Assembly (NCBI RefSeq): GCF_039822205.1
Contig: NZ_JBAGBW010000001.1
Coordinates: forward strand, 124,001-188,000
Source: Thermodesulfobium sp. 4217-1
GTDB taxonomy: Bacteria > Thermodesulfobiota > Thermodesulfobiia > Thermodesulfobiales > Thermodesulfobiaceae
Length of the DNA: 64,000 nt
Direction of reading: 5' to 3'
Part shown: piece by piece, positions 1 through 43,992 of the stretch
Position numbering within the stretch: the stretch's first letter is position 1
Layout of the letters: each line of letters starts with the position of its first letter
Made by a program: the position numbers and the translations under genes
The notes under the pieces: model-generated
What the model was told of the DNA's origin: nothing
Database searches by the model: none
Seen by the model: the letters and a program-made list of their open reading frames with translations, nothing else

Positions 1-168
1 GCCGCGAAGCCCCTCTCCTGGTATGTCTTTAGAGATTTTCTAAATGACATATATTTTGATAAAGAAGTTTTTAAAAATATATCTTTAAGCATATCAAAAT
101 ACCACTACGAGCTCTTTAAAGAACAGAAACTTCTTCAAAGCGATTCGAAGATTACTTTTAAGATTTAA
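1..168 (+). CDS. C-terminal end of an unknown protein (partial)
   Basis: The reading frame is open from base 1 to a TAA at 166-168 and gives the last 55 residues of a protein whose start lies outside the window. The tail is rich in Lys, Phe, Tyr and Ser and mostly hydrophilic, with no motif I recognise. Its last 75 bases overlap, tail to tail, the end of the minus-strand UGA-containing gene at 94-369. Codon use looks like that of the neighbouring genes, which favours a real coding end, but so short a fragment cannot be assigned a function. Confidence 0.5.
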   Translation, partial: AAKPLSWYVFRDFLNDIYFDKEVFKNISLSISKYHYELFKEQKLLQSDSKITFKI

Positions 169-369
169 TTCTCTTGGAATATAAATTTCGATTCCCTCCT
201 GTTCAAAAACTTTATATGACGTATCTTCCATAGGTTCTCCCGCTCGAACTGAGGGGGGCAGCGGAAGTCTGCTTCAGGAAAAACACGATGACGCATTTAA
301 GAAATAAATCTTCGAACCCTTTGCCTGTATGTATTCTTTAGCCTCTTTATCAAACTCAATTTTAGGCAT
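94..369 (-). CDS. CC/Se-motif family selenoprotein, downstream copy (UGA at codon 32 read as Sec)
   Basis: ATG at 369-367 has a good Shine-Dalgarno (GGAGG) inside the end of the upstream gene. Reading the TGA at 276-274 as selenocysteine gives 91 residues. Cys29 and Sec32 form a C-x-x-U redox motif, followed by a PSVRAGEP segment and a C-terminal EIYIP strand. It aligns without gaps to the upstream gene through the UGA: both have Lys/Ala-rich N-termini, an I-Y-x-L strand at about 21-24, and the UGA at residue 32. From memory it resembles the short proteins annotated as CC/Se-motif (seleno)proteins, whose function is unknown. A hairpin with loop AGUUC begins 24 nt after the UGA. The last 20 or so residues overlap the convergent partial gene and may not be conserved. 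If UGA were a stop, only 31 residues would be made. Confidence 0.72.
239..257 (-). promoter_or_regulatory. Candidate bacterial SECIS hairpin of the downstream UGA gene
   Basis: On the minus strand, arms CCCCCUC and GAGCGGG (one C/C mismatch) enclose the loop AGUUC. The loop starts 24 nt after the UGA, within the 16-37 nt range known for bacterial SECIS elements, and has G as its second base, as those elements require. A competing 8-bp stem using 260-267 and 237-244 is also possible and would keep the AGUU within a larger loop. No folding energy was computed. Confidence 0.6.
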
Positions 370-664
370 TTTTACCTCCATCTAAAGCATATATATAAAT
401 ATATTCCTTGCCATAAGAGCTCGACTTTGCATCAATAATTAGATCTTTGTCATAGGAAAAATTATCTGGTACATACAAAACTACATCGTCAAACTGCATG
501 TAAAAGTGTTTATCAAAATCTCTTTTTGGCCTTCCCCATCTAACTGATGGAATTCCAGAACCAGTTCCTCAAGTGCTGCACAACAAATCCCTTGATGGCA
601 AGATATAAATCTCGCCTCCATTAGTTTCAGCTAGTTTAATTGCCCTTTTAGTTAAAGATATCAC
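362..664 (-). CDS. CC/Se-motif family selenoprotein, upstream copy (UGA at codon 32 read as Sec)
   Basis: The frame runs from GTG at 664-662 to TAA at 364-362, 100 residues if the TGA at 571-569 is read as selenocysteine. Cys29-Ser-Thr-Sec32 gives C-x-x-U at exactly the same residues as in the downstream paralogue, followed by IPSVRWGRP. An extra 30 or so residues follow the shared VPDNF-like end. The GTG lacks an obvious Shine-Dalgarno, but alignment with the downstream copy supports a start here, and a TAA lies a few codons upstream in frame. It overlaps the downstream gene by 8 nt, so the two probably share one transcript. A hairpin with loop AGUUA begins 24 nt after the UGA. Function is unknown; a redox or metal role is inference from C-x-x-U only. 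The alternative is a pair of decayed genes, which is unlikely given the identical stop position. Confidence 0.72.
536..550 (-). promoter_or_regulatory. Candidate bacterial SECIS hairpin of the upstream UGA gene
   Basis: On the minus strand, CCAUC and GAUGG form a perfect 5-bp stem, extendable by two U-G pairs, around the loop AGUUA. The loop begins 24 nt after the UGA, the same spacing as in the paralogue, and again has G as its second base. The loop bases lie in codons for Pro-Ser-Val-Arg in both genes. Confidence 0.6.
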
Positions 665-42591: not shown

Positions 42592-43374
42592 ATGGACGAT
42601 CAAAAGGAATATAAAGAATTTACTGAAGAGATATTCAGGCTAACAAGCATTCCATTGCATTTATACAGAGAAAACCAGGTAAGAAGAAGGGTAACTCTGT
42701 GGATGAGCTTTTTAGGCATAAAGACATTTGGAGAGTATTTAGGCTACCTTAAGTCGAATCCAAAGGCGTTGGAAGAGTTTAAGAAAAAATTTACCATAAA
42801 CGTGTCTGAGTTTTTCAGAAATCCAGAGCTTTTTGAAGAGCTACAAAAATACATACCAGAACTATCAAAAAAAACAGACGTGTTGAAAATTTACAGCGCT
42901 GGTTGTTCTGTGGGGGCAGAGGCATACACCGTTGCAATAATACTTAATGAATATTTTAAAGGCATAAAGTATCATATATGGGGGCTTGATATTGACGATG
43001 AAGCTCTTGAAAAAGCTAAGATAGGAATCTATACGAAAGATTTTTTTAAAAGCGCAAAAGCGCAACTGCTTGAAAAGTATTTCAAGAAATTTCCAGATGA
43101 AAAATATCAGGTTAACGACGATATTAAGCAGAATACAACATTTGTGAGGGGAGACTTGATTCTGGGTGAACCTCCAAGATTGGATTTTGATATTGTACTT
43201 TGCAGAAATGTGGTAATATATTTTGATGAAGAGGCAAAAGAGAAGGTTTATGCAAATATTAGCAAGAGTCTTAAATTAGGGGGAATTCTTTTTGTGGGAG
43301 CCACCGAGCGAGTTTTTAATGCAAGAAGATTTTCCTTGGAATATGTCTCGTCATTTATATATAAAAAGGTCTGA
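42592..43374 (+). CDS. cheR: Chemotaxis protein methyltransferase CheR
   Basis: 260 residues. SAM-binding motif IYSAGCSVGAEAYTVA near 100 and the acidic GLDIDDEAL near 130, the FVRGDLI and DIVLCRNVVIYFDEEAKE segments near 190, and a helical N-domain (1-75). Methylates receptor glutamates. ATG, 20 nt after cheB. Confidence 0.94.
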   Translation: MDDQKEYKEFTEEIFRLTSIPLHLYRENQVRRRVTLWMSFLGIKTFGEYLGYLKSNPKALEEFKKKFTINVSEFFRNPELFEELQKYIPELSKKTDVLKIYSAGCSVGAEAYTVAIILNEYFKGIKYHIWGLDIDDEALEKAKIGIYTKDFFKSAKAQLLEKYFKKFPDEKYQVNDDIKQNTTFVRGDLILGEPPRLDFDIVLCRNVVIYFDEEAKEKVYANISKSLKLGGILFVGATERVFNARRFSLEYVSSFIYKKV

Positions 43375-43383
43375 GGAGGTTCC

Positions 43384-43992
43384 ATGGGATACGAAAAGCT
43401 TGAAGCTGACCACTTAGATGCTTTAAAAGAATTAGGCAACATTGGTGCCGGCAATGCTGTTACTGCCCTGTCTTCTTTCTTGAATACCGAGATAAATATG
43501 GAGGTAGTGGAGGCGAAGCTTGCCACCTTTAATGAGGCTGCTAATATCTTTGGCAGTCCAGAAAAGGAAGTGGCAGCTGTGTATTTAGCAATTTCTGGCA
43601 ATCTAAAGGGCCACGTTTTATATCTTTGGCCAGTCCAAAGCGCAAAGGCAATAGCAGGCATGCTTATGGGTATGAATCCAGATGAGCTTGAGTTTGATGA
43701 GATGACAATGTCTGCGATTTCTGAAATAGGCAACATTATGTCTGGATCATATATAACTGCCCTATCCTCTTTTACTGGTATGACATTCGATATTAGCCCT
43801 CCTGCTGTGGCAGTAGATATGAACGGTGCACTTTTAGACGGCATTATATCCTTAACTGCTGTGGGCGATAGAGTTTTGATTATACAGACAAGCATGGTTG
43901 CTTATGGCGTAAGAATTGCTGGAGTTTTGGCCGTTTTGTTTGAACCAGATTCTTTAATAAAACTTTTAGAGTCAATTGGAATGGGTGTTTGA
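43384..43992 (+). CDS. cheC: CheY-P phosphatase CheC
   Basis: 202 residues. Both phosphatase motifs are intact: LKELGNIGAGNAVTALS near 15 and AISEIGNIMSGSYITALS near 116 (each with E and N in E-x-x-N). It dephosphorylates CheY-P and pairs with CheD. ATG with GAGGAGG upstream, followed by cheD. Confidence 0.93.
   Translation: MGYEKLEADHLDALKELGNIGAGNAVTALSSFLNTEINMEVVEAKLATFNEAANIFGSPEKEVAAVYLAISGNLKGHVLYLWPVQSAKAIAGMLMGMNPDELEFDEMTMSAISEIGNIMSGSYITALSSFTGMTFDISPPAVAVDMNGALLDGIISLTAVGDRVLIIQTSMVAYGVRIAGVLAVLFEPDSLIKLLESIGMGV

Follow-up and report, generated by a model that had tools for sequence, protein, structure and literature searches.

Two overlapping genes on the minus strand of the 64-kb stretch of Thermodesulfobium sp. 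4217-1 DNA analyzed here (the window) stay open only if an in-frame TGA is read through, raising the question of whether these codons specify selenocysteine (Sec). Inspection of the reading frames confirmed this arrangement, with which the original prediction had begun. Gene 1 (362..664, minus strand) runs from a GTG start to a TAA stop and encodes 100 residues, and gene 2 (94..369, minus strand) runs from an ATG start, with a GGAGG ribosome-binding site a short way upstream, to a TGA stop and encodes 91 residues; the two genes overlap by 8 bases. The in-frame TGAs, at 569..571 in gene 1 and 274..276 in gene 2 (both minus strand), fall as claimed at residue 32, three residues past Cys29, within C-x-x-U motifs (CSTU and CFSU, respectively). 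The two products share 26% identity over 91 residues (BLASTP E 5e-10, single comparison). Their alignment had been described as free of gaps, which proved slightly wrong: the starts are offset by two residues, a two-residue insertion precedes the Cys, and one further gap comes after it. Despite these gaps, the predicted Sec is residue 32 in both products.

A mechanical scan of the whole 64-kb window for frames with at least 20 codons before and at least 50 codons after a TGA returned genes 1 and 2 as the sole read-through frames outside long ordinary open reading frames. At 42592-43992 of the window (plus strand), one TGA divides two long open frames of 260 and 205 codons (KKVUGGSMGYEK), which looks like two neighbouring genes rather than a Sec site. 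The gene pair lies beside a glycosyltransferase gene and a divergent TPR gene, a gene order kept in the congeneric genome G001, and these neighbouring genes indicated no pathway for genes 1 and 2.

To which family do the products belong? The original prediction had proposed a search against CC/Se-motif families, and this guess was right: gene 2 matches the NCBIfam model NF041239 (Moor_selen_rel, 'CC/Se motif family (seleno)protein') with 65.4 bits, residues 3-89 aligning to positions 2-88 of the 91-position profile, well over the curated cut-off of 40 bits. Gene 1 (25.8 bits, E 8.1e-6, residues 2-82) and a third paralogue described below (gene 3, 24 bits) score under this cut-off. In a 2026 review (PMC13188914, Table 1), NF041239 appears among the CxxU selenoproteins, with a single Sec and a predicted occurrence in Moorella thermoacetica, and is credited to papers of 2008 and 2016. 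As judged from these profile scores, gene 2 belongs to the family, and gene 1 is treated as a divergent paralogue rather than a filed member. The locus represents a kind of system already known, and the family was catalogued before, without a known function. It had also been expected that a standard gene caller would miss both genes; as gene 2 exceeds the NCBIfam cut-off, an annotation pipeline that includes the NF041239 model could detect it.

The locus resembles other NF041239 members in the full-length match of gene 2 and in its CxxU motif with one Sec, but differs in that two Sec members stand in tandem. Of 386 sampled genomes, seven contained members of the family, and three of the seven belong to other genera. 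Beyond the genus, relatives in one class have CTU, CSU, or CAU forms, so that the motif there is CxU and not CxxU, while those in another class are Cys forms that retain a single Cys. The CxU relatives (L040-L043) carry a strong 8-bp hairpin with a GGUC loop 17 nt past the UGA. All 22 collected relatives match NF041239. Neither product matched any Pfam family, and the relatives gave only scattered weak Pfam matches. No plasmid homologue was found, and a scan of genome contigs returned only one near-identical locus. We discarded the one match from a PDB sequence search as chance, and a toxin-subunit NCBIfam match of one relative (E 0.07) as noise.

Two further paralogues of genes 1 and 2 were identified among the four congeneric genomes, that of the window (G000) included. 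Gene 3, with a C-x-x-TGA motif (CGSU or CGAU), occurs in three of the four (G000:C28, G002, and G003), and the TGA is kept in each. Its copy in the genome of the window, outside the window itself (L013:1501-1842), encodes 114 residues with a CGSU motif and lies in a phosphate-transport neighbourhood, between phoU-like and universal-stress-like genes (named from sequence only). A Sec-free Cys paralogue is present in all four genomes. In the genome of the window this gene (G000:C14; L011:1492-1776, again outside the window) has a single Cys at the Sec column; it lies shortly after an apparent tRNA 3' end and ~7 kb from selA.

The selA, selB, selC, and selD genes that the original prediction had proposed to look for are all present in this genome (2.0 Mb, 69 contigs), so that one of its two refuting cases, a genome lacking selB and selC, does not apply. 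The tRNA-Sec gene selC (L010:10001-10090) scores 76 bits (E 5.6e-16), above the Rfam cut-off. It is followed ~25 bases downstream, on the same strand, by a 626-residue SelB-like open frame (L010:10116-11996), whose identity was assigned by reading the frame beside selC (GTPase start AGHIDHGKTELI...) rather than by family search. Matches to selA (526 bits) and selD (325 bits) were obtained, and both genes occur in all four congeneric genomes. The selD gene contains an in-frame TGA of its own (L030:1531-1533) with an AGGUG-loop hairpin after it; SelD is thus probably also a selenoprotein.

We then looked for hairpins 3' of the UGAs. The published model of the bacterial SECIS element describes a loop of 3-9 nt, a stem of 4-16 bp, a G in the first two loop positions, a distance of 16-37 nt after the UGA, and an energy of no more than -7.5 kcal/mol (PMC13188914). 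Both UGAs in the window satisfy this model at fold lengths of 45, 51, and 57. The putative hairpin of gene 1 (532..552, minus strand) has two alternative pairings, with an apical loop of AGUUA or GUUAGA 23-24 nt past the UGA, and was folded with the GUUAGA loop, a 7-bp stem, and a distance of 24 nt (-10.7). That of gene 2 (239..256, minus strand) has an AGUUC loop, a 6-bp stem, and a distance of 23 nt (-11.9). As a background, 6.4% of the 2240 TGA triplets in the window satisfy the model, and 3.2% do so with G[GU] in the loop; this stricter form is satisfied by both UGAs of the window and by 13 of 15 UGA members (fold length 51 nt). A scan for AGUU hairpins was also supportive, but its motif was picked after seeing these genes, and for this reason the published model was used instead. 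In genes 1 and 2, the AGUU loop is partly explained by the TCA GTT codons, which encode a conserved Ser-Val. In gene 3, the AGUU segment is kept in the hairpin in another reading frame and with different codons (AGC AGT TTG), which speaks for conservation of the RNA itself. The gene 1 hairpin has competing folds in some species, and the G001 copies of genes 1 and 2 have minimum-energy structures built on a different hairpin.

Could the in-frame TGAs simply reflect decay or sequencing error? If they were nonsense mutations, the frames would be pseudogenes, and standard translation does halt both genes at residue 31. This reading is refuted by the pattern of conservation; the original prediction had already set decay aside, on the ground that it would not put identical stops in both copies. 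Family searches recovered the tandem pair in each of the three other genomes from the phylum, the pair in the window having been read directly, and the TGA stands at the same codon of both genes in all four congeneric genomes. On either side of the TGA, pairwise dN/dS does not exceed 0.29 in gene 1, 0.10 in gene 2, or 0.14 in gene 3, and the synonymous divergence (dS) in these comparisons reaches 1.9. Downstream of the TGA alone, purifying selection is strong (omega at most 0.28 for gene 1 and 0.10 for gene 2), with no frameshift or other stop. That gene 3 has the same arrangement also speaks against decay, to which we give virtually no weight.

A different possibility is that the UGAs are translated as another residue, either Trp by recoding or whichever residue is inserted by near-cognate suppression, a process that would proceed without selenium and for which precedent exists in that near-cognate tRNAs can read through UGA. 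Global reassignment of TGA was rejected, since this codon closes 16 of the 53 long open frames in the window and gene 2 itself. Moreover, gene 2 stops with TAA in one genome but with TGA in the other three, indicating that UGA still acts as a stop at the end of the gene. The Sec column, one of five invariant columns in the 22-member alignment, holds only TGA or Cys in all 22 relatives; the Sec-free paralogue and homologues from other phyla have Cys there, and Sec-free homologues never have Trp, and the original prediction's refuting case, homologues with nothing but stops or gaps at this position, was not borne out. Together with the full Sec machinery and the SECIS-like hairpins 3' of the UGAs, these observations make insertion of another residue very improbable. 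Only a slim chance is likewise given to the proposal that the UGA is a regulated stop, with Sec inserted when selenium is available and a 31-residue product made otherwise, so that the pair serves as a selenium switch. In its favour, this genome also has the Sec-free Cys paralogue (G000:C14), which could stand in when selenium is lacking, but the sequence gives no sign of a role for the short product, and the proposal would be a layer of regulation on top of Sec insertion, not an alternative to it.

Overall, from the computed reading frames, family match, machinery genes, conservation, and hairpins, we infer that Sec is inserted at both UGAs. We place the probability of this reading, combined with assignment to the CC/Se motif family, at about 0.93 on the sequence evidence. 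Sec insertion had been put forward from the outset as the best explanation, and the machinery genes, the conserved TGAs, the low dN/dS values, and the Cys in the homologue column uphold it. The two-gene unit would accordingly be expressed as two paralogous small selenoproteins, with SelB, charged tRNA-Sec, and the SECIS hairpin ~23 nt past each UGA directing Sec to residue 32. These products would most likely be small cytosolic proteins in which an exposed loop carries the C29/Sec32 pair.

For gene 2 (pLDDT 86, pTM 0.78) and gene 1 (pLDDT 84, pTM 0.76), AlphaFold models show a beta-alpha-beta start followed by a beta-rich remainder; prediction is poor in the CxxU loop, parts of which fall below pLDDT 50. 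For each model, the nine best PDB matches found by Foldseek are IscA, SufA, and related A-type or Fe-S biosynthesis proteins, with marginal best E values of 2.6e-3 (gene 1) and 6.9e-3 (gene 2) and TM scores of about 0.5-0.6 (up to 0.60). We also aligned the CC/Se family profile with a HesB-like/A-type profile, for which HesB-like selenoproteins and A-type relatives were gathered from other genomes. The alignment scored 27.1, compared with at most 15.2 for 60 column shuffles and 13.4 for the reversed profile, and placed the Sec column on a conserved Cys/Sec, the N-terminal Cys of A-type proteins. Gene 1 alone gave a weaker alignment to the HesB profile, in which Sec did not fall on the conserved Cys. 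Based on these models and alignments, the chance that the products are built on an A-type (IscA/SufA/HesB-like) scaffold appears somewhat better than even.

The likeness to known A-type proteins is partial. What the products would share with IscA and SufA is a Cys or Sec in one particular loop: the CxxU motif appears to sit where IscA has its N-terminal cluster-ligand Cys. A-type proteins bind their cluster with a C-terminal Cys pair (PMC7144353). This pair is absent from both products, neither of which has the three Cys ligands, and identity in the best matches is 9-16%. Given the missing C-terminal Cys pair, we do not class the products as Fe-S carriers. HesB-like selenoproteins (TIGR01911) have a similar size and order of elements, and their conserved Sec/Cys aligns with the Sec column of the CC/Se family; their motif, in contrast, is UxGP/UGGP and not CxxU. 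No match to TIGR01911 was detected at E 0.001 in the genome of the window or its congeners (G000-G003). A literature search on A-type proteins and selenocysteine listed no paper that by its title concerned the CC/Se motif family. The A-type fold lead, the most useful element of this analysis, may be new for this family.

What chemistry might these proteins perform? The Cys and Sec of a CxxU motif usually join in a reversible selenenylsulfide. We infer that the pair in genes 1 and 2 could work as a thiol/selenol redox pair or as a metal- or chalcogen-binding pair, the latter being what an A-type-like scaffold may instead support. Loss of the C-terminal ligands leads us to prefer a redox role over cluster carrying, although we would call this role an even bet. 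We give about even odds to a broader reading, in which the CC/Se motif family is a branch of the A-type (IscA/HesB) scaffold whose cluster-ligand Cys became Sec and whose C-terminal ligands were lost; in this lineage it would have grown to four paralogues, three with Sec and one with Cys, that have taken on different roles.

These results support the prediction of two selenoprotein genes and reveal that two divergent subgroups, represented by genes 1 and 3, are scored under the cut-off by the current family model. They also offer a testable structural lead for a family that lacks a function, namely an A-type scaffold with Sec at the position of a cluster ligand. Finally, a 2 Mb genome with four paralogues, three using Sec and one using Cys, is suited to testing why Sec is retained.
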